Positions 1 through 28,037 of a stretch of 35,146 nucleotides of DNA are shown here, piece after piece. Source of the stretch: Bryobacterales bacterium (GTDB lineage Bacteria > Acidobacteriota > Terriglobia > Bryobacterales > Bryobacteraceae). The notes under the pieces were generated by a model that saw only the letters and a list, made by a program, of their open reading frames with translations, ran no database searches and had not been told where the DNA came from. Positions within the stretch are counted from its first letter, which is position 1. Every line of letters begins with the position of its first letter. The DNA is taken from contig PLEX01000147.1 in the NCBI GenBank assembly GCA_003136575.1, forward strand, positions 1 through 35,146, in the 5' to 3' direction. Made by a program: the position numbers and the translations under genes.

Positions 1-730
1 GGGCGGGGCGGGGATACCTTGGCTTCGGGGAAAGTGGTTCAACTCCGGAAAAAGCCGGTTACGGTAGGGATACCGGTTGCTCGGCCCTCCGTGCGGACCC
101 GTGCCTGCGCCGCTAACGCAGACGGTTCTTACCTCTGGTTCTGGCGTCAAAACACACATTGGTGTACGGTTGCCGGATTTGGACCCCTGGCAACTGGGCC
201 CCGAGTTGTCCAGAAAATCGTTTTCACGTCCACAGGCTTCTTTGACTCCGCTGTCGTAGCTGCTTCCCCGGCTTTCATTCGGCTGCCTCATCGCTATTAC
301 GTCGTACGACTCCCCGCCAGCGTTCATATGGGCCTTACGCTCTTCGCTTTCTCCCACCAAACCGTCGCCGTGCGGCAACGGATGCTAAATAACGGGGCCT
401 CTCGGTTCTCGTGCGTGAGGTTTCTATACATGCACGGGGTCTGCGCCTCCGAAGAGCCGGCTGCGCACTCGCGTTTTCCGCGCGCTGCGGTGTTGCCTTC
501 CGGTTGGCCTGACACCGTCGGCACTCTGATTTGGCTATTTTGGAGTTCATCAACTTCAGGGATACCCAGCCTGCATATGCCCCTGTTCAACGCTCACGAC
601 CGCCCTCATTGCTCGGGCTCAGAATGGTTCGCTACTCCTTACTCCTTATGACTCTTTCATTCACTGTTTCACGGTCCACGTTGTTCGCTGCTTCATTCAG
701 GGTTTCCATATTCCAGCGCAACACGTCCGA
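1..730 (-). mobile_element. probable 5' part of a group II intron, running off the left edge
   Basis: Read on the minus strand, this stretch carries broken-frame text that resembles the open-frame leader found upstream of many bacterial group II intron maturases, for example HENREAPLFS followed in another frame by GGESYDV and RQPNESRG. The plus-strand 210-residue open frame at 19-651 looks like the spurious antisense 'protein' often annotated over such introns. No reverse transcriptase domain is visible, so the maturase would lie beyond base 1. The intron 5' end is uncertain: a GTGCG start is available at 468 on the minus strand, but the similarity seems to continue to about 700-730. Identification rests on remembered family text only. 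Confidence 0.35.
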
Positions 731-4861: not shown

Positions 4862-5520
4862 ATGCTAAGGACCCGGCTCGTGCTGCTCACGATGGCTCTG
4901 GGCCGCGCATTCATCTGCCACGCTGACATAGCCATAAATTTCAACGGGTTGCCAGACGGCTATACTCTGGCGAATTATGATGGCTTGACTTGGCAGAACA
5001 CTGAGGTCGTTTCCGATCTGTCCGGTTACGACTACGCTGTCCCCACTACGGGAGGGGCGATGACGCAACCGGTAGAGTTCTCGGCACCGCCAGGACAAAC
5101 GTTCACGTTGGTTTCCATAATGCTTGGCGGTCCGGAAGTGGATGATGACGGTCCTGAGGGTGGATACGACTACGTTACAGTTTACGGCTTAGACGCTTCC
5201 GGAAACCAACTGGGTTTTGACCGGGTTGATATGATTCGGACCCGTCTGGGGGTCTTTTTTATCAGTCCTACCCCCCCTATCTGATTGGATGGTCCGGCGT
5301 GCATTCCGTCGCGATCTATCATAGGTTTCAGTACTTTGGGGTTTATGGCGAGATGTCTGGTGTCGGCCTGGAGCAAGTCACGATTTCTGATCTTAACGCG
5401 CCAGAGCCCTCGTACCTCGTTTTGGTGTTATTTGGGATGGCCGGCATGATTGTCGCCAAGCTCAGTTGCGGCCGCGGCGGCCGCAGCCAGCGCGCCCGGC
5501 TACCTGGCTGCCGATCTTGA
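4862..5520 (+). pseudogene. PEP-CTERM secreted protein, frameshifted
   Basis: The protein starts at ATG 4862, 10 bases after GGAGG, with a signal peptide-like N-terminus (MLRTRLVLLTMALGRAFICHA). The first 141 residues form a beta-rich extracellular domain (FNGLPDGYTLANYDGL, YDYVTVYGLDASGN). The frame stops at 5281-5283, but the -1 frame continues as YLIGWSGVHSVAIYHRFQYF and ends in a PEP-CTERM sorting tail: PEPS, hydrophobic YLVLVLFGMAGMIVA, then basic residues. The switch lies at a run of seven C (5271-5277); eight would restore one frame, so it may be a sequencing error or slippage. PEP-CTERM proteins are processed by exosortase; none is in this window. The gene sits between the two ends of a kinase gene on the other strand. 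Confidence 0.7.
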
Positions 5521-5878
5521 ATACCTCGCCGATCCGTATGCCGCCATGGGGAATAAGGCGATCCAGCGCCTTGCCCGGCAAGTACTCCATGACAATGAAG
5601 GGTGTGCCGTCATGCGCCGAAATCTCATGGATCATGACGATATTGGGGTGGTTCAGCGCGGATGCGCTGCGCGCCTCCTGCGTGAAGCGCCTGAGACGAT
5701 CCGCGTCTCCGAGCTTGTCCGGAGGGAGTAACTTAACGGCCACATAGCGGTTGAGTGCAGTGTCACGCGCCTTATAGACCACACCCATGCCGCCTTCGCC
5801 GAGCTTCTCGACGATTTCGTAGTGGCCGATGTCGTGCCGAGCATGAGTACTCAGTATAGTACCGGATGATCGGACCAT
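5462..5878 (-). pseudogene. N-terminal fragment of a eukaryotic-type Ser/Thr protein kinase
   Basis: Starting at ATG 5878, the frame gives a kinase N-lobe: glycine loop GEGGMGVVYKARD, VAVKLL with the ATP-binding Lys, the helix-C region RFTQEARSASALNHPNIV, the hinge-like FIVMEYLPGKALDRLI, then IRIGEVFKIGSQVAG. Family members continue 'ALAAAHAAGIVHRDLKP'; here the frame slips by one base after QVAG (the alternative frame reads ALAAAAAA) and the HRDLKP catalytic loop is absent. The fragment therefore cannot be an active kinase. The break near 5470-5485 coincides with the 3' end of the PEP-CTERM gene. Confidence 0.85.
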
Positions 5879-5950: not shown

Positions 5951-7993
5951 CTACTGCCGCAGATGTTTGCTCAGCGCGAAGAAGAACGTCCTCCCATACT
6001 CCGGAAGGGTATCGACCAGCGGCGTCAGGCCGGTCGGGTCCGAGTAGGCGAAGTTCGTCAGGTTCCGGACGCCGGTTCGGAATTCAAGCCCCTGCGGCAA
6101 TCTGGCGTTGAACGTCGCCTCGGGAACAAATACGGGTCCGAGTATTGCGCCCGCCAGCGTGCCGCGGTCGCTCATCGAAACCAATCCGGCGGAGAGAGTC
6201 ACATTAGGGGACCAGAGAGGCGAACTCAGCAGCAACTTGCCGATATTGCAGGGCGAGTTGGCCGGAGTCGAGCCGGAGAGATTCGCTCGCTGTTTCTGGA
6301 AACTTGCCGAAACCTCCAGCTTTGAAAAGAGGGTGCCACTGACTTCCGCGGAAGCGCCCGTGCCCAGAAACTCACTGGCGTTCTGAAACTGAATGGCGCC
6401 GCTCGAAAGATAGACGGGAACGATCACTCCCTTGTCGTCGATATGATAGGCCGAGACGGTCGCCTTCCAGGAGCGGAACAGCCGGCGCTGCGCTTCCACC
6501 TGGAAGGTATCGGCGATTTCCGGCTTCAGAGCCGTGTTCGCCACATTCTGCGACCCATCCGCGAAGAACAATTCATTGGCGTTGGGATTGCGGAACCCGC
6601 GGCCATAAAGGAACTTGAGAGAAGACTTGTCGTCCGGTTGGAACACGACGGCGGCTCGGGGAGAAAAAGCGCTGCTGCGATAGTAAGACCAGTCGTAACG
6701 TCCGCCGAGGTTGAAGCTCCAGCGCTTTCCGAGGCTCCACTCCTCCTGCAGAAAGCCCGCCAGGTAACGGTCCGGCTTGTTGATATACGTGTCCTGAATG
6801 TAAACGGGCTGCACGTCGGCTTCGCTCTGCAACGCCCGTAGATCGATCTTGACTTCCGATCCGGCCGTCAGGAAGCCCTTAAGTCTCCTGAAAGAAAGCC
6901 ACGGAAACCGATAATTCACCTGACTGCCGACCCAGTCGCCGGCGTCGAACTCATGGTTGACGTCGATCTGGCTGGCGGCGGCCTGGCCGGTGATAGTCGT
7001 GCTCGAATTATCGCCGCTGTTATCCAACGGGTAGTAGTAGATTCCGTGATACTCGTATTGGTCGAAGAAGGTTCTCCAGTGGAACGTGCCCCCGGTCTTC
7101 GTTTTCCGCGTGTATTGGAGATCGACGAACAGGCGCTGGTCCGTCGCCCGCGTCCCCGGGTCGTTAAATACCGCATCGCCCCAGGAAATCGGCTGCACTT
7201 TTTCCCGCGAACCGGCCAGTGACAGAAGTTCCCAGTGCCCGGCCTTGAAGTCGGCGAAGAAACGATAGCCGCGGGATGCATCCATGTTCACCGCCACGCC
7301 GTTGTTTGTCGCTGGCGTATCGTAGGCTGAAACGAAAATGTCGTTCGCTCCAGTGGTGTTGAATGCCGTCCCTGACAGAAGAAGGGAACTGTCGCCAAGG
7401 TGGATGGCCTGGGTGATTGTTACCTTCTTTTCTCCGAGAGTATCTCCTTCCGTCAGCACGGAGGTACCGTGTTCCCGCGCCGGGTCCTTCGTGATCACAT
7501 TGATTGTTGCAAGAATCCCGTTGCTGCCGTAAAGGGCGGATGACGGACCGCGAACTATTTCGATGCGGCCCACCAGCGACATGTCGAGCGCGAAGTCGTC
7601 GCCGAAGTAATTGGCCGACCCGAAAACGTTGTCGGTCATTGTATGGCCGTTCACGAGCACCAGAATTCGCGTAGCCCAGTCGCCGGGGACGGAGAAGCCG
7701 GCGACGCCAAGATTGTAGTACGTATGATCGTAGGCCAGATAGAAGCCGACAACGTGGTTCAGTGCTTCGCCGAGAGTGCGGTAGCCAAATCTGCGAATCT
7801 CTTCGGCGGTAACGACCGTCACGACTCCGGGGGCTTTGACGGCGCTCTCATTATGCAGAGAAGCTGTCTGCACCTGAAGTTTCGCTAGATCCTCCAGCGA
7901 GAGCGAAGTCAAATCCGGGTTCTGCGCGGTCGCGGATATGACGGAAATTGCCAGTAACGCAGTTATTGGCCAGGCCTTACAGGTTTGCAGCAT
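5951..7993 (-). CDS. TonB-dependent outer-membrane receptor
   Basis: A 680-residue receptor; the start ATG 7993 gives a signal peptide ending ISATAQ, and 61 upstream in-frame residues are discarded. After LSLEDLAKLQV comes the plug domain (about 45-150): VVTVVTAEEIRRFG, VNGHTMTD, IEIVRGPSSALYGSNGILATINVITKDP. The rest is a beta barrel with a TonB receptor box (GVRNLTNFAYSDPTG, YGRTFFFALS) near the C-terminus. The short 'SLEDLxxLxV' N-terminus is typical of receptors encoded next to YfiR and sensor-kinase genes. It is divergent from exactly such an operon across 237 bases; I found no riboswitch there. The ligand is unknown and transport may be secondary to signalling. Confidence 0.93.
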   Translation of the reverse strand: MLQTCKAWPITALLAISVISATAQNPDLTSLSLEDLAKLQVQTASLHNESAVKAPGVVTVVTAEEIRRFGYRTLGEALNHVVGFYLAYDHTYYNLGVAGFSVPGDWATRILVLVNGHTMTDNVFGSANYFGDDFALDMSLVGRIEIVRGPSSALYGSNGILATINVITKDPAREHGTSVLTEGDTLGEKKVTITQAIHLGDSSLLLSGTAFNTTGANDIFVSAYDTPATNNGVAVNMDASRGYRFFADFKAGHWELLSLAGSREKVQPISWGDAVFNDPGTRATDQRLFVDLQYTRKTKTGGTFHWRTFFDQYEYHGIYYYPLDNSGDNSSTTITGQAAASQIDVNHEFDAGDWVGSQVNYRFPWLSFRRLKGFLTAGSEVKIDLRALQSEADVQPVYIQDTYINKPDRYLAGFLQEEWSLGKRWSFNLGGRYDWSYYRSSAFSPRAAVVFQPDDKSSLKFLYGRGFRNPNANELFFADGSQNVANTALKPEIADTFQVEAQRRLFRSWKATVSAYHIDDKGVIVPVYLSSGAIQFQNASEFLGTGASAEVSGTLFSKLEVSASFQKQRANLSGSTPANSPCNIGKLLLSSPLWSPNVTLSAGLVSMSDRGTLAGAILGPVFVPEATFNARLPQGLEFRTGVRNLTNFAYSDPTGLTPLVDTLPEYGRTFFFALSKHLRQ

Positions 7994-8230
7994 AGGTTCA
8001 CGTAGCAATCGGCATATCGGCCGGAAATCCAGCGGCTTGAGCGGCATTCCGGGAACTCCCCGCGGGATCGTCATACTACGCCCGCCAGCCTTCAACGGGC
8101 GAGAGCCGGGAGATTGGCCGATTGCGGTGTTCGCGCATCGGCCGGCGACGGCCCGGAAGCCTGGTCCGGCTGTCATATGCGAACTATTCCTTTGGGATCA
8201 ACATTATCGTGCGGAATGCCGATAGGTTCA

Positions 8231-10315
8231 ATGGTGAGCCCCGGAACGGAATCCAAAATACCGGCTAAGGAATGCGTTCTTGTCGTCGACGACGAGGAAA
8301 TGAACCGGAATGTGTTGTCGCGGCGCCTTGAACGAAGCGGATTCGAGGTCGAGGTTGCCCATAGCGGTGCCGACGCCCTGAGAAAAACGGGGGAACGGGC
8401 ATACGATCTGGTTCTGCTGGACCAGATGATGCCCGGAAAATCCGGTTCGGACGTGCTCCGGGAACTCCGGAACCAATACTCCGAATCCGTTCTTCCGGTC
8501 ATCATGGTGACGGCCGTCGCGGACAGCGGCCGGGTGGCGGAAGCTCTGGAACTGGGGGCCAACGACTACATCACCAAGCCTTTGGATTTCACGGTGGCTC
8601 TGGCTCGCATCCGTGCTCAACTGTCGCGAAAGCAGGCTGAGACGGCGCGGCGTCAGAGCGACGAACGGTACCAACTGGCCGCACGGGCCGCCAATGACGG
8701 CCTGTGGGACTGGGACCTTATTTCCAATCAGGTTTACTACTCGACGAGGTGGAAAAGTATGGCGGGGTTATCCGACGGCGAAGTCGGAAATTCGCCGGAA
8801 GAGTGGTTTTCCCGGGTCCATGCCGACGATGTGGTTGCTCTGCGGGCCGCCATGCAGCAGCATATGGACGGCGAATCGGACTGTTTTGAATCGGACTACC
8901 GGGTCCGGCAAAAGGATGGGCATTACAGGTGGATGACCGGCCGGGGCAGCGCTCTGCGGAACTCCGATGGCAAGCTGGTTAGAATCGCGGGATCGCAAAG
9001 CGACGCCACGCGCAGAAAGACGGTGGACGAACTGACGGGTTTACCCAACCGTCTTCTGTTCAACGAGCGTCTGGAAGAGGCACTCAAACGGTCCCGGACC
9101 AATCCCGAAAGCCGGTTTGCGGTATATTTTGTCGACCTTGACCGTTTCAAGGTGGTCAACGACACCATGGGGCATCTCGCCGGCGACCAAATGCTGGTGG
9201 AATTCGCCAACCGGTTGCGTTCGGTGTCCGCCGGCACGAATTCACTCGTGGCGCGATTGGGCGGCGACGAGTTCGCGCTGTTGCAGGAAATCGCGGGCGG
9301 CAGCGAGCAAGCCGCGGCGTTCGGCGACGCGCTGGTTGGGGCGATGTTGCCGGCATTCCTTCCGGGAGGAAGGGAATTCTTCACCACCACCAGCGTTGGA
9401 ATCGCCCTTTCTTCGGAGGCGCATACTTCGGCCGATGCCCTGATTCGCGACGCCGATATCGCGATGTATGCGGCAAAGTCCCGCGGCCGGGGCCGATGGG
9501 CCATTTTCGACGATTCCATGCGCAGGAACGCTCTCGACCGCCTGGAGATCGAACTGGATCTGCGGACGGCTCTCGCCAAGGGCCAATTCGTTGTCCATTA
9601 TCAGCCGAGAGTGGATCTTGAGACGAAAAGAATCCGGGGATTCGAAGCTCTGCTCCGCTGGAAGCACCCGCGCCGCGGCCTGATCCTGCCAGACGAGTTT
9701 ATTCCCGTTGCCGAGGATACGGGCATGATCCGCGAGATTGGGTTGTGGGTACTGGGCGAAGCGTGCGAACAGATGCGCCGGTGGCAGCAACAATTCCCGG
9801 ACAAGCCCTGGCTCGACGTCGCCGTCAATGTCTCGCCCGTTCAACTGCGCGATTCGGCGCTGGTTCAGCAGGTCGCTCAGATTCTCAACGAGACGGGCCT
9901 CGAACCGTCCGGTCTGCAGATTGAAATCACCGAGAGCACGCTTCTCTCGGATATCGAAGAAACCCGGGAGTTGCTGCTTGCGCTGAAAGCGCTGGGCGTC
10001 GGACTAAAGCTCGACGATTTCGCCACCGGCTATTCCTGCCTGCGTTACCTCCACCGTCTCCCCTTCGACACGATCAAGATCGACCGCTCGTTTATTCGGA
10101 GTCTTGAAAACGGCGATGTCGAATCGAGAGAACTTGTGAATACCGTTCTATCCATGGCGCAGGGCCTCAGTCTTGGCGTCATTGCGGAAGGAATCGAGAG
10201 TCAGGCGACAGCCGATTTGCTGAACGATATGGGGTGCAGATTCGGACAGGGATTTCACTTTTCCGCCGCTGTGTCCGTAGAAGACGCCACGGCTCTGCTT
10301 CGTGATAAAGGGTAG
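8231..10315 (+). CDS. response regulator with REC, PAS, GGDEF and EAL domains
   Basis: A 694-residue protein from ATG 8231 (ATG 8216 is also possible). The receiver domain spans about 14-130, with acidic pair D20/D21, phospho-acceptor D64 and K116. A PAS domain (about 145-260) includes WDWDLISNQVYYSTRWKSM. The GGDEF domain (about 265-425) has an intact GGDEF at 344-348, but the RxxD inhibitory site expected at 335-338 is missing. The EAL domain (about 435-690) keeps EALLR at 472-476, VNVSPVQLR, EITES, LDDFATGYS, IKIDRSF and AEGIES. It could therefore both make and break c-di-GMP, with REC phosphorylation by the kinase two genes downstream as the likely switch. Confidence 0.93.
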   Translation: MVSPGTESKIPAKECVLVVDDEEMNRNVLSRRLERSGFEVEVAHSGADALRKTGERAYDLVLLDQMMPGKSGSDVLRELRNQYSESVLPVIMVTAVADSGRVAEALELGANDYITKPLDFTVALARIRAQLSRKQAETARRQSDERYQLAARAANDGLWDWDLISNQVYYSTRWKSMAGLSDGEVGNSPEEWFSRVHADDVVALRAAMQQHMDGESDCFESDYRVRQKDGHYRWMTGRGSALRNSDGKLVRIAGSQSDATRRKTVDELTGLPNRLLFNERLEEALKRSRTNPESRFAVYFVDLDRFKVVNDTMGHLAGDQMLVEFANRLRSVSAGTNSLVARLGGDEFALLQEIAGGSEQAAAFGDALVGAMLPAFLPGGREFFTTTSVGIALSSEAHTSADALIRDADIAMYAAKSRGRGRWAIFDDSMRRNALDRLEIELDLRTALAKGQFVVHYQPRVDLETKRIRGFEALLRWKHPRRGLILPDEFIPVAEDTGMIREIGLWVLGEACEQMRRWQQQFPDKPWLDVAVNVSPVQLRDSALVQQVAQILNETGLEPSGLQIEITESTLLSDIEETRELLLALKALGVGLKLDDFATGYSCLRYLHRLPFDTIKIDRSFIRSLENGDVESRELVNTVLSMAQGLSLGVIAEGIESQATADLLNDMGCRFGQGFHFSAAVSVEDATALLRDKG

Positions 10316-10342
10316 GTCCCGGGCGCGATCCGGGAACGCAAC

Positions 10343-10897
10343 ATGATGCGGAGGCTGGCCAGATCGCTGGTGATCGTTGCCGCGGCCTTGTCGCTGGCAG
10401 CGCTGGCGGGCGCCGATGCGGCCGACGAATACGAACTGAAGGCGGCGATGTACGTCAACCTGCTTCGCCTGGTCGAATGGCCGGCGGGAAGATTGGCCGA
10501 CCCCGCCTCGCCGCTGGTGATCGGAGTTGCGGGTTCCGAGGACATGGCCCGGGCTCTCGACGCGATCGCCGCCCGCAAGAGCGCATCGACTGGCCGCCGG
10601 ATTACCGTGAAACGAATCGCGGGCATGGCGGGCATAGAGGAATGTAATTCGCTTTTCATCGGGGGCGGCGACCGCAAGCGGATTGAGGGAACGCTGGCGG
10701 CCGTTTCGAAGAATCCGGTCCTGACCGTGGGAGAAAGCGATCGCTTCATCTCTCTTGGCGGCATGATCGACCTTGCGCTGAAAGACGACGACCGGGTACA
10801 AATCGAAGTCAATCTGGATGCCGCGCACAATGCCCGTCTGGAGATCAGTTCCCAAGTGTTGAAAATCGCGGTCATCAAAGCGGGCGGTGGAAAATGA
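10343..10897 (+). CDS. YfiR-family periplasmic protein (DUF4154)
   Basis: A 184-residue secreted protein: the signal peptide MMRRLARSLVIVAAALSLAA is followed by the YfiR signature DEYELKAAMYVNLLRLVEWP. Later family landmarks are VIGVAGSEDMARALDAIA, NSLFIGGGDRKRIEGTLA, LTVGESDRFISLGGMIDLAL and the closing QVLKIAVI. In Pseudomonas, YfiR is a periplasmic repressor of the diguanylate cyclase YfiN. Here it lies 27 bases after the GGDEF-EAL gene and overlaps the kinase gene (ATGA), so it more likely restrains or senses for the membrane kinase. The missing YfiB role may be filled by the divergent TonB receptor (inference). Confidence 0.9.
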   Translation: MMRRLARSLVIVAAALSLAALAGADAADEYELKAAMYVNLLRLVEWPAGRLADPASPLVIGVAGSEDMARALDAIAARKSASTGRRITVKRIAGMAGIEECNSLFIGGGDRKRIEGTLAAVSKNPVLTVGESDRFISLGGMIDLALKDDDRVQIEVNLDAAHNARLEISSQVLKIAVIKAGGGK

Positions 10898-12513
10898 CAA
10901 TCCCCCCGTCCGGCATTCCTCGGCGTGGCATCCCCCGATTTGCCGACCTTGCGCTCGGCAGGAAACTCACGCTTCTTTTTACCGTGGTTTCAGGCACCGC
11001 TCTGGCCTTGTTTGCCGGAGCTCTTTGGGAGTACCAGTCCGAGGCCTATCGTCGGGAATTGCGGCAGGAAATGTCGACGCTGTCGAAAACTCTCGCCGAT
11101 AGCGGCGCGGCGGCGCTGGCATTCCGCGACAACCGGTCGGCGGCGGAGACCCTCGCCGTGCTGCGCGCCGAACCGAGAGTTTCCGCCGCGTGCCTCTATC
11201 GAACCGGAGATGTCCGGTCGGCGTCTTACCCCGCGGCAATGCGTGAAAGCGTTTGCCCCTCCAAGCCAGGGCCGGACGGGATTATCTTCAGCGATCGGGC
11301 ATTGACCATCGTGCAGACATCGCGGCTGCAGGGCGATGCGGTGGGCCAGCTGTGGATGTCGGTCGATCTGGCGGATCTGTATCTGCAACTGCGGCGGCTC
11401 GGTCTCATCTGCATGGGCGCCCTGGCGATTGCATTGCTGCTTGCAGCCATCGTGGCGTCCCTTCTGCAGCGGCTGATATCGGGCCCGATTCTGGGCCTTG
11501 CGGCCGTGGCCAGCCGCGTTTCGATTGACGGAGACTATTCGATCCGCGCCCGCCGGGTATCGGAAGACGAACTCGGCGTTCTGGTAGAGAAATTCAACGA
11601 AATGATGGAGCAGATCTACCAGCGCGACCTCGCGCTGGAGAGGGCTCATGACGAACTCGAGGAACGCGTCCGCGACCGGACGAGGGAGTTGAGCGACGAA
11701 ATCGCCACGCGCCGGATCGTGGAGCAGGACCTGCTGACCGCGAAGGAAGCAGCCGAGGAGAGCAATCGCGCCAAGGGCGCGTTTCTGGCCACGATGAGCC
11801 ACGAACTCCGGACACCGCTGAATGCGATCATCGGTTACACCGAAATCCTCGCGGAGGACGCCACAGCGGAAGGCAATGGGCAAGTGCTCGCGGACCTCGA
11901 TTGCGTGTTGAGCGCCGCCAGGCATTTGCTGAGCTTGATCAACGACATACTGGACTTTTCGAAGATCGAAGCGGGTCGAATGGAAATTCATCCCGAGCCG
12001 GCGACGGCGCGCAGCGTCATTGCCGACGTGCCGGCGATGCTTCAGCCGCTCGCCAGAAAGAACGCCAACGAATTCGTGACGGATCTGCCGGACGAGGACT
12101 ACGTGGTCAATGTGGACGCCATGCGCTTCCGGCAGAGCCTGATTAATCTGCTGAGCAATGCCTGTAAGTTCACGGAGCACGGAAGGGTTTCTCTGGGAGT
12201 CGGACGGGAGGTATCCGAGAGCGGCAATTGGATTTGCTTTGAAGTGCGGGACACCGGGCCGGGAATCGCGCGCGATGGTATCGAAAAACTGTTCAAGCCT
12301 TTCTCACAAGTGGATTCCTCGGCGACACGCAGACACGGAGGCACGGGCCTTGGGCTGGCGATCAGCCAGCGGTTCTGCCGTCTGATGGGTGGAGAAATCA
12401 GCGTGGAGAGCGAACCGGGGAAAGGGTCGACCTTCACGATCCGGCTGCCAGAATACCAAGATGGGGCCGTAGCTCCGACCATGGTGAACTCCGATATGGC
12501 GAGTGTCGATTGA
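10894..12513 (+). CDS. membrane sensor histidine kinase (CHASE8-like, HAMP)
   Basis: A 539-residue kinase. Membrane helices at about 26-46 and 168-190 enclose a periplasmic domain of about 120 residues that has the CHASE8-like pattern LADSGAAALAFRDNRSAAETLAVL. HAMP is at 190-243 and a coiled coil (RAHDELEERVRDRTRELSDE) at 248-290. The HisKA domain has phospho-acceptor H303 in SHELRTPLN. The ATPase domain has N422 (LINLLSNACKF), DTGPG at 453-457 and GTGLGLAI at 483-490. There is no fused receiver, so the partner is probably the REC-GGDEF-EAL protein two genes upstream. Translation is coupled to yfiR through the ATGA overlap. Confidence 0.93.
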   Translation: MTIPPSGIPRRGIPRFADLALGRKLTLLFTVVSGTALALFAGALWEYQSEAYRRELRQEMSTLSKTLADSGAAALAFRDNRSAAETLAVLRAEPRVSAACLYRTGDVRSASYPAAMRESVCPSKPGPDGIIFSDRALTIVQTSRLQGDAVGQLWMSVDLADLYLQLRRLGLICMGALAIALLLAAIVASLLQRLISGPILGLAAVASRVSIDGDYSIRARRVSEDELGVLVEKFNEMMEQIYQRDLALERAHDELEERVRDRTRELSDEIATRRIVEQDLLTAKEAAEESNRAKGAFLATMSHELRTPLNAIIGYTEILAEDATAEGNGQVLADLDCVLSAARHLLSLINDILDFSKIEAGRMEIHPEPATARSVIADVPAMLQPLARKNANEFVTDLPDEDYVVNVDAMRFRQSLINLLSNACKFTEHGRVSLGVGREVSESGNWICFEVRDTGPGIARDGIEKLFKPFSQVDSSATRRHGGTGLGLAISQRFCRLMGGEISVESEPGKGSTFTIRLPEYQDGAVAPTMVNSDMASVD

Positions 12514-12559: not shown

Positions 12560-12997
12560 GTGATGGACAGCGTGACTCCTGGCCATAGCCACGATGGTCC
12601 CGAGAACCAGGTTCGCAAGCTGGAGCCGATGTCGCATGGACGAACCGATCTTCGGAAGCGCAAGCCCAGGACGGTTGCCGTCATAAACGACTACTGCACC
12701 GGATGCGCGGGCGCTCCCGTGTGTATCGTCTATTGCCCCGTCGATATGTGCATGTTCTGGGTGCCCGACGATACTCATCCGCCGTTCGGCAAGGTTCAGG
12801 TGGACAAGTCCACTTGCATCGGTTGCGCCAAATGCGCGACCAAAGGTCCGGACGGCATTTTTCTGGATGGTTGCCCGTGGGACGCTATCGAAATGGTCGC
12901 CACGGGCGAATGGGAAGCCAAACGCGGAGTTGCTTTGCGGGAGATACCGGATCCGTCGGACAACGGTTCGGAATTCGTTCCGGAAATCTACGTTTGA
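12560..12997 (+). CDS. 2[4Fe-4S] ferredoxin
   Basis: A 145-residue ferredoxin with two cluster motifs. The first set is C46-x2-C49-x5-C55-x3-C59-P, the second C86-x2-C89-x2-C92-x12-C105-P; both carry the Cys-Pro close typical of 4Fe-4S ferredoxins. The first motif has two extra residues between its second and third Cys (CTGCAGAPVC), and the loop before the last Cys of the second motif is long (KGPDGIFLDG). The 45-residue N-terminus is basic and has no signal, so the protein is cytoplasmic. The start may be GTG 12560, ATG 12563 or ATG 12629. It converges on the bc-complex operon with an 18-base gap; a role in the same electron-transfer chain is only suggested by position. Confidence 0.85.
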   Translation: MMDSVTPGHSHDGPENQVRKLEPMSHGRTDLRKRKPRTVAVINDYCTGCAGAPVCIVYCPVDMCMFWVPDDTHPPFGKVQVDKSTCIGCAKCATKGPDGIFLDGCPWDAIEMVATGEWEAKRGVALREIPDPSDNGSEFVPEIYV

Positions 12998-13015
12998 TCG
13001 ACGCCGAGCGCGAGA

Positions 13016-16000
13016 TCATTTAGCGCCCCGCGCCGAGGGCGTGCGCGGCATCATTCCGACCAGGCGGCGTTGTTCGTCCGTCGTCATCGACAGCATGTAA
13101 CGGACAAGCAATTGCGCGTGGTCTCCCGGGTAACTCTGCGCGTCTTTGGGAATCTGTCCCGCCAGTACCCAGCGATCGCCGTTGCGCCGGAACAGCTGAG
13201 ACGGCATCGCCGTTCCCGGACTGATGGTCTGCGGGTCGAGAATCCAGCGCAGGGTCCATCCCGGCTTCAGGCGATCCTTCGCCTCCAGGAAATTCGGCGC
13301 GGAAGCCTGCCGGTCGTGATTCGGATCGCCGTACAAATGGCATTGCAGGCAGGGCGCGCCGGGCGCACTGAACAGCGCTCTCGCCACCTGACGCTCCCGG
13401 TCGTCGAGCGGCTCGATCCTGGCCTGCGTTGCGGCTGCGGATTGCCCCGAGATCGCTTCAAAGAAACGTACAAGGACATTAATTTCGTTCTGCGAAAAAC
13501 GAAAAGTAGGCATCCGCGCCCGCAAGTATGTCCGCACACCGTTGCCTTCGGAGCGCTCTTCGTCAAGCGCCGGGTTCGCCAGGAACTGCGCAAGCCATGC
13601 CGGCGAAACACGCGCGCCTTCTTCGATCAGCGACGGCGGCAGCTGGTCTTTCGTATCCGGATCGGCGTAGAGCGGCAATCCGCTGAGCACGGAGCTCTGT
13701 CCGATCTGGATCGAGTGGCAGCCCATGCAATTGTATTTCTTAATCAGCCACCAGCCATCCTGTATATCTTTTTTCGCGCCTTCCGGGTTGTAGCGGAGCG
13801 AGTCCGGGATCGTGCGGAACTCGCCGTGCGTCGACGTATCCAGGCTGCCAAGCATGAAGGTAGTCAACGCCCGCAGATCCTCCGCCGAGAGGTCGATGGC
13901 CGGCATTTTCAACCGGTCCTGCGGGGCCTTTTCGCGATTAGTGTCGTAAATGGCCGGGTTCTGGAGCTTGTGCTCAATGAAGCCTTTTGTGCTGTACCAG
14001 CCGTCGTGTTTGGCCGGTCCCTCGAGCAGCCCGAAATCCAGTTGCTCGATCGGCTTACTCGCCCAGGTTGTGAGTTCAGTTGCGGATTGGCGGGCGTCTT
14101 CAAAGCCCTGGATCTCATGGCAGTTGGCGCACCCGTAGCGGCTCACCAGTGCGCGGCCCGCGACGGCGAGCTTCGGGTCGTCCATGTACCGTACATCGGC
14201 CGGATTTGCCGAAGGATGCGACAGCCCCGTCAGATACGTCGCAATGTCCTGCGCTTCCTGGAGGGTGAGCCGCAGGCTGGGCATCACGGTCATATTCTGA
14301 ATCTGCAGTTCGGTGCCGTCGTTCGGGCATTTGGAATGGTTCTCGTCGAAGACCCACGGCTGGCCGTGCCGGGCATAGTCTTCCGGCGTCAGATCGCGCT
14401 GTTCGAGAGGGCAAAACGGCCGCGTTCGCCGACGGGGATCCTGCACCCACCGGACAATATAGTCGTAGCTGGCTTTCTCGCCGATGCGCGTCAGATTCGC
14501 CGCAGACTCTCCGCCCATGCGGCCGGCGCCTTCGCCGATGGAATGGCATGCAAGGCAGCCGCGCGTCTCGAAAAGTTCCTTGCCGTGTGCCGCCTCGCCC
14601 GATTTCTGTTGCTCGGGGCGGGGACCGTCCCATGCGGTTTGCCAGATGAACGCCGCGAGCGCGCGCACTTCGGAATCAGGGAGGCGAAAGCGTGGCATGC
14701 GCGGAAACGGGTTCACCGAGCGCGGATCGGCGAGCCATTGCGGAATCCATTCTTTGCGCAGCTTCAGGCGCGCGTCCTTCAGGTTCGGACCTGCTTTCTT
14801 CACATCCCGCTGGATCGAGCGAACGGTGCCTTCGAGCGCATCCAGCTTAGCGTCGATCTGGCTGGCCTTCAGCAGGAGAGCGTCCGCCGCGGCGTAGTGC
14901 TTTTTCGTCTCCTCGTTCGACTCGGCCTGGTCACCCTGTTTGGTTTCGATGTCGCGATCAATGCGGTCCTGCTCCTGCTGCCTAGTGAGGGACCGGACCT
15001 GCCGCCGCGTTTCGGCGAGAGCGTCGGCTTCCCGATCGAAGCCCTCGAAACGATGGCAACCGGCGCAGCCTTTCAGCTGGAATAGATCTTTGCCGCGGGA
15101 GAGCGTCGGGGCGTCTTCGAGCACGCGATCCCTCACATGGCATTGTTGACAGCCGCTCTCGCGATCGGCCGGGGCGAACATCGGCCACTGCCAGTGCGGA
15201 TAGTTTCCATGCGCTTCCTTCACGCTCGAAACCGCCACTCCATTGCCGTTGTGGCATGGAGTGCAGCCGAAGCGCGCTGGATCGTGGATATCGAGCAACT
15301 CGCGCTTCGGATGGCTGACGAAAACCCGCTGGCCTCCCGTGTCCGCCGCCGTCAGCTGAACCGGTTCCCTGATGCCGAGATGGCAGGACTCGCAGCGATC
15401 CACCAGGCCGGAGTCTTCCACGTATATCTGACGGATCCCGACTTCAAACCCGTCCAGCTTTCGCAGCAATCCATCTATCTGCGCCGGGCTCGCTCCGGTT
15501 CTGTTCCGACGCAGGAATTCGTTCAATCGCGCGCGCACATCTTCGGCGGGCTTTGTTGCGGCGGCGTGTTTCGCCACGAGTTCCGCTTCGCGTTGCTTCA
15601 GCGCGTTGAAGGATTGTTGAAGGTGGTCGAGATCGCCCTCGCGGCGGGCCTGTTCGATTGCGGATCGGATGGACGCTTTTCCCTGCGGAGTAGCCGCGTG
15701 ATCGAGTTGATATTCCAGCGCGGCCACCTTCGCGCGGGCGTCTTCGAATGGTTTTTCTATCGCCGAAAGCCGTTGCCTGACGCCGCTCAGTTCGCGGTCG
15801 ATTGCTTTCAAGATTTCCGCTGCGCCGGCTTCGGCGGCTTTGATCTGCTGCTCCAACGACTGCGCGTCCGGGGATTCCCGGAGTTGTTTCTCCGTCGCCG
15901 CCTGCGCCGGTTCCACACTTTTCAGATAGCGGGTGTATGTCTGCACAAAGCGCCGTTGATAAGCCTTCCATGGCCGGTCGCCCCAGACTTCGGCGTAGAG

Positions 16001-16117
16001 CGCCCAGGCGAGGGCCAGGATCAGGAGGATGGCGGAGACCATGATCGGGCCGCTCAGCGAGTGGCTGATAATGGGATCGGGTTCGCCCTCGGGCGTCGGC
16101 GTAGTGTCTTGCGGCAT
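13016..16117 (-). CDS. octahaem membrane-anchored cytochrome c of the bc-type complex
   Basis: A 1033-residue protein with one N-terminal membrane helix (about 23-43) and no cleavable signal. It has eight CxxCH haem sites, starting at residues 242, 285, 323, 351, 521, 663, 797 and 923. A long charged, coiled-coil-like segment covers about 70-205, and a second (about 361-450) splits haems 4 and 5. Several haem modules carry a distal Met in MPxLR/MPxF context, as in mono-haem cytochrome c domains. Two non-haem Cys-Pro pairs, C569 and C597 (FCPLE, KCPNDG), could hold a metal. It is the last gene of the cupredoxin-Rieske-cytochrome b operon, 21 bases after the subunit IV gene, so it presumably takes electrons from the Rieske centre in the periplasm. 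Confidence 0.93.
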   Translation of the reverse strand: MPQDTTPTPEGEPDPIISHSLSGPIMVSAILLILALAWALYAEVWGDRPWKAYQRRFVQTYTRYLKSVEPAQAATEKQLRESPDAQSLEQQIKAAEAGAAEILKAIDRELSGVRQRLSAIEKPFEDARAKVAALEYQLDHAATPQGKASIRSAIEQARREGDLDHLQQSFNALKQREAELVAKHAAATKPAEDVRARLNEFLRRNRTGASPAQIDGLLRKLDGFEVGIRQIYVEDSGLVDRCESCHLGIREPVQLTAADTGGQRVFVSHPKRELLDIHDPARFGCTPCHNGNGVAVSSVKEAHGNYPHWQWPMFAPADRESGCQQCHVRDRVLEDAPTLSRGKDLFQLKGCAGCHRFEGFDREADALAETRRQVRSLTRQQEQDRIDRDIETKQGDQAESNEETKKHYAAADALLLKASQIDAKLDALEGTVRSIQRDVKKAGPNLKDARLKLRKEWIPQWLADPRSVNPFPRMPRFRLPDSEVRALAAFIWQTAWDGPRPEQQKSGEAAHGKELFETRGCLACHSIGEGAGRMGGESAANLTRIGEKASYDYIVRWVQDPRRRTRPFCPLEQRDLTPEDYARHGQPWVFDENHSKCPNDGTELQIQNMTVMPSLRLTLQEAQDIATYLTGLSHPSANPADVRYMDDPKLAVAGRALVSRYGCANCHEIQGFEDARQSATELTTWASKPIEQLDFGLLEGPAKHDGWYSTKGFIEHKLQNPAIYDTNREKAPQDRLKMPAIDLSAEDLRALTTFMLGSLDTSTHGEFRTIPDSLRYNPEGAKKDIQDGWWLIKKYNCMGCHSIQIGQSSVLSGLPLYADPDTKDQLPPSLIEEGARVSPAWLAQFLANPALDEERSEGNGVRTYLRARMPTFRFSQNEINVLVRFFEAISGQSAAATQARIEPLDDRERQVARALFSAPGAPCLQCHLYGDPNHDRQASAPNFLEAKDRLKPGWTLRWILDPQTISPGTAMPSQLFRRNGDRWVLAGQIPKDAQSYPGDHAQLLVRYMLSMTTDEQRRLVGMMPRTPSARGAK

Positions 16118-27248: not shown

Positions 27249-27253
27249 TTGCC
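27228..27253. repeat. exact 13-base tandem duplication
   Basis: CCGAGGTATTGCC is present twice in direct succession (27228-27240 and 27241-27253). The second copy covers the TTG start region of the malic enzyme fragment. It may be a duplication scar from transposition or repair. Confidence 0.7.
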
Positions 27254-27463
27254 TGTGAAACGAGGCGAAGATGCGCCGGAATATCATTCCTCCTTCCCTG
27301 CCGGCAAGATCGCCGTCACTTCCACGAAGGCGTGCCTGACCCAGCGCGATTTAAACCTGGCCTACACGCCAGGCGTAACCGCGCCGTGTCTTGAAATCCA
27401 TCGCGACCCTGACCTCGCTTACAAATACACGGCGAAGGCCAATCTGGTGGCGGTTGAGCCCCG
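27249..27463 (+). pseudogene. maeB: N-terminal fragment of NADP-malic enzyme (MaeB)
   Basis: The first 71 codons from TTG 27249 encode the start of a large malic enzyme: VKRGEDAPEYHSS, GKIAVTSTKACLTQRDLNLA, YTPGVTAPCLEIHRDPDLAY and KYTAKANLVAV. MaeB enzymes are about 750 residues and carry a malic domain plus a phosphotransacetylase-like tail; here homology ends abruptly at LVAV and transposase-like sequence follows in the same frame. The catalytic parts are absent, so this is a truncated remnant. A GTG at 27255 is an alternative start. Confidence 0.88.
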
Positions 27464-28037
27464 TCGGGTGGCCCAAAGCAGCCATTGCGCAAGGTGCCGG
27501 AGACCAACGCGATTTTTTGGCGCCATGCATGGCATCAACCGTGTGGCCGACGCGGACGAAGGAACGGTTCGGTTGTCGCTGGACACCAAGGCTCTGGTAC
27601 GCATCGGCCTGCTGAGTCGCGGCGGCAAGAGCCGGCAGGCGCAAAAGGCGTTGGACCACGATCTGGAACCTATAGCCAAGCTGACGCCCTTGCTATCCAT
27701 CGCCCGACACGGCGGAAACGTGGCTGAGGTTCACCACCGGAAGCGCCATGGCGGACTTCATGGCGGACCGCCTGCAAGCGATCTGGCCGACACTCAAAAA
27801 AACGGTTGTGCTCCACATACCCTTGTGATCAACGCGGGCAACGGGCCTGAGAACAACACCGGCCGCATCCAGTGGACCAAGCGGCTGGTGGAGTTACGCG
27901 GCGAACATCAGGTCACGGTGAAATTAGCCTGCTATCCGCCCTATCACAGCAAATACAATCCGGTGGAATGCGTCCTCGGCGTACAGGAGAACTACTGGAA
28001 CGGCGATCCGCTGGAAACGGCAAACCACGCCTTTTAG
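27464..28037 (+). pseudogene. ISAzo13-family transposase remnant
   Basis: The segment matches the central and C-terminal parts of ISAzo13-type transposases. The order is RKVPETNAIF (frame 2), NRVADADEGTVRLSLDTKAL and IGLLSRGGKSRQ and QKALDHDLEPIAKLTPL (frame 0), ETWLRFTTGSAMADFMADRL and QAIWPTLKK (frame 2), then TLVINAGNGPENNTGRIQW and ACYPPYHSKYNPVEC and ENYWNGDPLETANHAF (frame 0). At least three frame changes and the missing N-terminus make it inactive. It joins the malic enzyme fragment in frame. No terminal inverted repeats were recognised. Confidence 0.88.

Follow-up and report, generated by a model that had tools for sequence, protein, structure and literature searches.

A TonB-dependent receptor, a YfiR-like protein and a YfiN-type sensor kinase as a widespread variant of the Yfi system, with a putative c-di-GMP output in a Bryobacterales bacterium

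The closest described relatives of the four-gene locus considered here, which lies at positions 5951 to 12513 of a 35,146-nucleotide stretch from a Bryobacterales bacterium (contig PLEX01000147.1 of assembly GCA_003136575.1, the whole stretch being termed the window; contig 44 of a 6.6 Mb draft genome), are the Yfi systems, namely YfiBNR of Pseudomonas aeruginosa and YfiR-DgcN-YfiB of Escherichia coli. The locus resembles these in its YfiR fold, in a CHASE8 sensor with an AAL-x-F (AAVVF) motif and in an adjoining gene for an outer-membrane partner. It differs in having a TonB receptor as this partner where the Yfi systems have the OmpA-like lipoprotein YfiB, and in that the GGDEF domain fused to the sensor is replaced by a HisKA-HATPase module, with GGDEF residing on a separate REC-PAS-GGDEF-EAL protein. 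In Pseudomonas, YfiB captures YfiR via the C-terminal surface and pocket of the latter, which have been suggested to serve YfiN as well (PMC4655355, PMC4887326); an 'AAVVF' motif of YfiN is the binding site for YfiR proposed by Malone et al. (2012; PMC3375315).

Variants of this arrangement in which the sensor is linked to other outputs are already known. Malone et al. (2012) described distant species, almost all lacking YfiB, in which YfiR is paired with a YfiN-type sensor carried by a kinase, HPT or GGDEF-EAL protein, and the legend of their Figure S5 places Acidobacteria bacterium Ellin345 among the distant yfiNR pairs aligned (PMC3375315). The word TonB does not occur in the main text of that paper, and no receptor, receptor collar (see below) or separate regulator is seen in the available parts of its account of the divergent YfiR-YfiN[PAS] systems. 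The trio itself is named in NCBIfam, where the models NF053590 (TOL_0244 receptor), NF053591 (TOL_0243 YfiR-like) and NF053592 (HK_near_YfiR_like) cover the same three families as the window; the kinase model is named as YfiR-like protein-associated, TOL_0244 and TOL_0243 are neighbouring locus tags, and the three models include no regulator of cyclic di-guanosine monophosphate (c-di-GMP). TOL_0244 of Thalassolituus, the namesake of the receptor model, rises sevenfold on n-C28 alkane relative to Tween 80 and has been proposed to be an uptake protein, likened to OmpS (PMC6304351), the alkane-sensing TonB receptor of Alcanivorax dieselolei (PMC6304351, PMC5174103, PMC9788540); TonB receptors have been reported to detect, or to rise on, alkanes. 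Within the accessible portion of the openly licensed literature no paper joining TonB receptors to YfiR was found, PMC9611778 holding both terms without linking them in the part available. As far as these tools show, the new elements are the counting of receptors against a background rate, the collar together with the way it follows YfiR, the exchange of the receptor within a genus, and the variant whose REC-PAS-GGDEF-EAL protein is separate.

Pfam searches confirmed the four gene families where an earlier note on this DNA had placed them, and its overall interpretation of them as one trans-envelope module is partly supported by the results below. The TonB-dependent receptor, with plug and barrel (PF07715, 66 bits; PF00593, 98-99 bits), occupies 5951..7993 on the minus strand; its open reading frame (ORF) can be extended to 8176, the likely start as read off the sequence being a Met at about 7993. 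Divergent from it, on the plus strand, are a response regulator with the Pfam architecture Response_reg-PAS_3-GGDEF-EAL (8177..10315; longest ORF from 8114, with an uncertain likely start, also read off the sequence, between 8177 and 8231), a YfiR-like periplasmic protein of the DUF4154 or YfiR/HmsC-like family (10343..10897), and a sensor histidine kinase with the Pfam-based organization transmembrane segment-CHASE8-transmembrane segment-HAMP-HisKA-HATPase and no receiver domain (10894..12513). A gap of 27 bp separates the regulator from yfiR, and yfiR and the kinase gene overlap by 4 bp.

Receptor, YfiR and YfiN-type sensor recur together in many bacterial phyla. The survey comprised 149 genomes drawn from the phylum, 28 of them YfiR-positive, and 61 close genomes, 22 of them YfiR-positive, the own genome being included in each set; with its three sites added to 74 others, the phylum sites came to 77, none of which was dropped. 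A plug receptor lies within 4.5 kb of YfiR at 62 of these 77 sites, a YfiN-type sensor at 69, and both at 55. When the count is limited to sites flanked on either side by 4.5 kb or more (full-flank sites), the figures are 49, 53 and 45 of 57. A second, named set was formed from the best 80 of 444 relatives in GTDB contigs by removal of four duplicates, and its record titles include Acidobacteria, Verrucomicrobia, Nitrospirae, Desulfobacterales, Ignavibacteriae and Planctomycetota. Here the receptor is found at 68, the sensor at 71 and both at 65 of 76 sites (38, 41 and 37 of the 43 with full flanks). Plug genes number 179 in approximately 55 Mb of ten genomes, or about one per 305 kb, so that a receptor would be expected by chance within 4.5 kb at about 3% of sites. 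The earlier note had asked for such a count of neighbours across genomes; as regards its four families, the trio of receptor, YfiR and sensor kinase is conserved, whereas the c-di-GMP regulator occurs in few loci only and represents one variant. Thus, the module is a real and widespread variant of the Yfi system. In further searches, a scan of GTDB contigs with YfiR as a single protein gave no match, and a search of plasmids gave two distant matches.

The window YfiR scores 118 bits with DUF4154, against 24.9 in Pfam, which places it in that family, and it barely passes NF053591 (126 bits; cut-off 125); residues 4-28 resemble a signal peptide. Its predicted model (mean predicted local distance difference test score 92.9) gives template-modelling scores of 0.78-0.83 to P. 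aeruginosa YfiR structures (4yn7, 4yna, 4zhu and others), and a profile of 32 YfiR relatives retrieved nothing but YfiR chains from the PDB at E up to 0.01. Taken together, the predicted structure and the profile matches confirm a YfiR fold. In an alignment of 157 YfiR rows, which include four duplicate loci, several of the best-conserved positions fall in a C-terminal block (window residues 157-176, NLDAAHNARLEISSQVLKIA) that matches the YfiB-binding part of P. aeruginosa YfiR, in favour of the chain proposed below, and Cys exceeds 8% only at the two columns of the first cysteine pair of P. aeruginosa YfiR, both Cys occurring together in 58 rows.

The kinase contains two membrane-like stretches (24-45 and 164-200) flanking a periplasmic domain, and its catalytic motifs are present. 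With NF053592 it scores 178.9 bits as a protein and 181.7 bits in the genome, missing the cut-off of 194 even though YfiR adjoins it. A profile of the kinase sensor gives a 196-column alignment to E. coli DgcN/YfiN (E 8.7e-14), indicating homology along nearly the whole length of the sensor, and DgcN in turn scores 116 bits with CHASE8 and 81 bits with NF053592, below the same cut-off. This homology supports the proposal of the earlier note that a phosphorelay stands in the place of YfiN. The DgcN alignment further identifies AALAFRD of the kinase sensor (11110..11130, plus strand) as the counterpart of the proposed YfiR-binding 'AAVVF'; across the family the motif reads A-A-L-x-F-x-D, with the Phe found in 138 of 154 rows from YfiR-bearing loci (four duplicates included). 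A fold search with the sensor recovered generic PAS/Cache-type sensors (such as WalK, CitA and a LapD relative), and no YfiN periplasmic structure was among the 50 matches listed.

The receptor matches NF053590 only over residues 88-258 of its long ORF, at 94.8 bits against a cut-off of 645. TOL_0244 offers a hint at possible ligands, but the window receptor is too distant from it for an alkane ligand to be inherited. The FecA/FpvA-type TonB receptors, which signal through an anti-sigma factor, would resemble it as signal-transducing receptors, the differences being that the STN domain was not found in the window receptor and that its signal would pass toward YfiR and the kinase. A Pfam scan to E = 10, a level at which the HMMER filters discard most matches above about 0.1, yielded plug and barrel only, and the candidate reading as a FecA-type signalling receptor was accordingly rejected. 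Hence, the 'signalling-type' character ascribed to the short N-terminus in the earlier note does not stand in the sense of an STN domain; the short N-terminus itself is a conserved element, here called the collar. This stretch is common to the YfiR-adjoining receptors, with the consensus DLTELSLEELMNVEVTSASKKEQKLSEAPAAVYVIT (in summary form SLEDLM-x-x-EVTS), and was assigned by eye to the TonB-box region. In the window this candidate YfiR-docking segment spans 7811..7930 on the minus strand (DLTSLSLEDLAKLQVQTASLHNESAVKAPGVVTVV) and scores 54.7 bits with a profile trained without it and 53.4 bits with profile A4, whose 27 rows include it.

A first, hand-written collar motif, which matched 37 of 129 linked and none of 20 unlinked receptors, was dropped because it was too strict, and was replaced by a cross-validated profile. 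For this, 130 linked receptors were used, with profiles trained on half of them, and the 20 unlinked receptors were the strongest unlinked plug matches. The held-out halves score medians of 62.9 and 65.2 bits, and among the unlinked receptors only L206, from the own genome, scores alike (65-67 bits), the next best remaining below 35. At a loose threshold of 8 bits, 128 of 130 held-out linked receptors pass, as do 8 of the 20 unlinked ones, since part of the plug is contained in the profile; reliance was therefore placed on strong scores and on a search of whole genomes. When the 27-collar profile was run against 20 genomes, the ten bearing YfiR contained 18 matches of at least 39.9 bits (six of them rows of the profile), 16 of which adjoin yfiR by position; the remaining two are L206 and a displaced relative of the window receptor in a genome of the same genus. 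Eleven weaker matches (19-30.5 bits) occur in these genomes, of which two are linked receptors (G065:C278 and G175:C7) and eight of the other nine lie in the single genome G175. In the ten genomes without YfiR, which all belong to the same family as the window and have 234 plug receptors, there was no strong match and one at 19.4 bits. The collar is therefore found mostly beside yfiR in the genomes searched. It is a common and not a universal tag, since six of the 24 YfiR genes in the ten genomes have no adjoining collar match and two have a weak one only. The own genome encodes a collar-bearing TonB receptor (L220:7453-9492, contig 215) on a 13.7-kb contig without YfiR, divergent from a gene resembling a tannase or feruloyl esterase; this receptor may signal through one of the genome's three YfiR copies elsewhere.

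Comparisons within the genus suggest that the receptor is an exchangeable part, which looks to have been replaced or moved while regulator, YfiR and kinase stay clustered. At one same-genus locus (L103, genome G013) identity to the window is 64% for the regulator, 58% for YfiR and 64% for the kinase, whereas the receptor matches only over residues 73-263, at 29%, and is encoded on the same strand between the regulator and yfiR instead of divergently. At another (L102, genome G001) the corresponding identities are 69%, 60% and 68%, the regulators of both loci being REC-PAS-GGDEF-EAL homologues of that of the window; no plug receptor was found in the stretch read, which reaches 17 kb in one direction and, in the other, about 3.5 kb as far as the contig end. 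A receptor 72% identical to that of the window, with a stop codon inside its reading frame, is found in the same genome at L221:5366-7312 (contig 25), where no YfiR was found. In a further genome (G003), a 54% relative of the window receptor, cut by the contig end, adjoins YfiR, and the neighbouring sensor is fused to PAS-GGDEF-EAL. As a separate observation, a second kinase (HAMP-GAF-HisKA-HATPase, with a weak Cache match) lies directly before the regulator of the L102 module (L102:7901-10057), its catalytic half sharing 55% identity with the window kinase, a pattern that a duplication would leave.

Tree comparisons agree with this picture. The input consisted of 73 of the 77 phylum sites (L106-L109 were left out) before a length filter, and the agreement is r 0.77 for YfiR-sensor (65 sites), 0.49 for YfiR-plug (58) and 0.43 for sensor-plug (51), none of these values being reached in 2000 permutations. 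The lower agreement of YfiR with the plug than with the sensor accords with an exchangeable receptor. Where a genome has several copies, the own partner fits better than that of the other copy in 20 of 24 YfiR-sensor, 17 of 20 YfiR-plug and 9 of 12 sensor-plug comparisons.

On these grounds we consider it probable that the four genes form a Yfi-type trans-envelope signalling chain, leading from an outer-membrane ligand through the periplasm to a c-di-GMP enzyme. Free YfiR would dock on the CHASE8 sensor of the kinase via the AAL-x-F motif and set the activity of the kinase, much as YfiN is repressed in Pseudomonas. Binding of a ligand by the TonB receptor, or the pull of TonB, would expose the collar in the periplasm, and the exposed collar would draw YfiR off the kinase, playing the part of YfiB. 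The kinase would then change the phosphorylation of the REC-PAS-GGDEF-EAL protein and hence c-di-GMP, probably mainly via the EAL phosphodiesterase. The receptor would be the exchangeable input part of such a chain, and the half behind the sensor, whether a kinase, a hybrid kinase or a sensor-fused GGDEF-EAL, its exchangeable output. A bolder version, which we offer only tentatively and hold to be rather doubtful as it stands, is that collar receptors are interchangeable input cartridges, the collar docking in the YfiR pocket used by YfiB and so converting ligand binding or TonB pull into release of the sensor.

A replacement of YfiB by the receptor, as supposed in the earlier note, would fit the finding that a phmmer search with E. 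coli YfiB (E up to 1) detected no OmpA-like gene within 5.9 kb of YfiR, a single-sequence search of this kind being liable to miss distant OmpA domains and many of the stretches being shorter than 5.9 kb. The E. coli control was found, and the sole other YfiB-like ORF, in L005, is 5.9 kb from YfiR (E 0.0015).

Several observations weigh against the proposed chain. The window YfiR lacks both cysteine pairs of its P. aeruginosa counterpart, with one Cys in the domain, and has Ile at the position of P. aeruginosa Phe151 (matched by eye). Likewise by eye, one of the P. aeruginosa pocket positions L166, I169, V176, P178 and L181 is variable in this family (window 158) and two are conserved as other residues (A161 and S170). 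Among seven sensor rows from loci without a YfiR match the Phe of the motif is kept in four, lost in two and uncovered in one, and with four rows keeping it the motif alone is no mark of YfiR dependence. Eight of the 57 full-flank phylum loci have no plug receptor nearby, the close relative L102 among them, and four have no sensor. No fusions of YfiR with the sensor or the receptor, which would have argued for contact, were found. The agreement between trees and the preference for the own partner could also be expected from plain linkage and are no proof of contact.

In the regulator the REC, GGDEF and EAL catalytic motifs are present and the inhibitory I-site (RxxD) of GGDEF is absent. The NCBIfam models that score best on its GGDEF-EAL half describe mostly phosphodiesterases, but none reaches its cut-off, so that a phosphodiesterase output is a guess. 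When the entire window was searched for domains, the module's kinase was the sole histidine kinase detected, and no receiver domain other than that of the regulator was found. Across the 77 phylum sites the sensor is carried on a kinase at 60 (36 of them hybrids with a receiver) and on a GGDEF(-EAL) protein at eight, so most modules end in a kinase, often hybrid. A separate GGDEF/EAL ORF lies near eight sites, of which six (the window, L055, L057, L091, L102 and L103) have REC-PAS-GGDEF-EAL. The own genome illustrates the range with two further modules, in which the YfiN-type sensor is fused to PAS-GGDEF-EAL (L004) or the kinase is hybrid (L005). The view of the earlier note that a c-di-GMP enzyme belongs to the module does not hold as a general rule, as any such enzyme is nearby at only 16 of the 77 phylum and 11 of the 76 named sites; the c-di-GMP flow is consequently one variant of a more general trio. 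In favour of the chain, the kinase is without a receiver of its own at all six Acidobacteriota sites where a REC-PAS-GGDEF-EAL protein is encoded nearby; against it, a separate receiver gene lies between kinase and regulator at two of the six, L057 and L091. A candidate rule that separate c-di-GMP regulators occur only with receiver-less kinases (6/24 versus 1/36 in the phylum, p = 0.013) was dropped after the named set, in which REC-GGDEF or REC-GGDEF-EAL regulators adjoin plain kinases in 4 of 32 cases and hybrid ones in 5 of 34; the two sets combined give p = 0.18, and the failure of the rule counts against the chain.

The strongest rival, which we regard as unlikely, holds that YfiR and the kinase are a self-contained periplasmic sensor of redox state or a small molecule, with the receptor as a mere supplier or a regulated target making no contact with YfiR. 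It can draw on the small molecules bound in the pocket of Pseudomonas YfiR (PMC4887326), on the proposed response of that protein to the periplasmic redox state (PMC3375315), on the TOL_0244 receptor as an alkane-raised, proposed uptake protein (PMC6304351), and on the eight full-flank loci lacking a plug receptor. However, the collar belongs to the receptor and tracks YfiR across the searched genomes, a feature that a merely regulated transporter does not need, and the missing redox cysteine pair of the window YfiR, both residues of which occur in 58 of 157 rows, counts against a redox sensor. Still less probable, and to our minds poorly placed, is the rival in which the GGDEF-EAL protein is a by-stander controlled by something else, the kinase acting on a different regulator: the scarcity of c-di-GMP enzymes at phylum sites, the absence from the named set of an association with plain kinases and the second kinase before the L102 regulator are in its favour, but the window and two same-genus loci keep regulator, YfiR and kinase clustered, at 58-69% identity, despite the change of receptor, the regulator-yfiR gap is 27 bp, and the window has no other receiver domain found by domain search.

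Beyond the locus, the region just past the receptor (5462-5878, minus strand) encodes a Ser/Thr protein kinase fragment that comprises the N-terminal part, its match to Pfam Pkinase covering positions 1-107 of 263, and the other side of the module (12560-16117) contains a ferredoxin-like gene (below the Pfam cut-off) and a 1033-residue protein with cytochrome c domains. Elsewhere in the window, 437-655 (minus strand) matches Group II intron D1-D4-6 at 90.9 bits, and a single ORF at 27249-28037 (plus strand) joins a piece of a malic enzyme N-terminus to a piece of a DDE transposase, as if an insertion had broken the malic enzyme gene. L220:67-3738 encodes a 1223-residue protein whose start reads like a SIR2-family protein, making it a possible defence gene.

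The signals sensed by YfiR-type systems were described as a central open question in 2012 (PMC3375315). If the usual outer-membrane partner is a TonB receptor, YfiR systems, of which the distant ones mostly lack YfiB, would gain a ligand-binding input, and the collar would be a short sequence tag by which receptor-YfiR contact can be tested directly. Were the cartridge reading true, the YfiR-coupled receptors of any genome, even unlinked ones, could be found from about 40 residues. If the proposed chain is correct, signalling by TonB receptors would extend beyond the sigma-factor route, and the detection of nutrients or hydrocarbons at the cell surface would be tied to phosphorelays and, in some genomes, to c-di-GMP.

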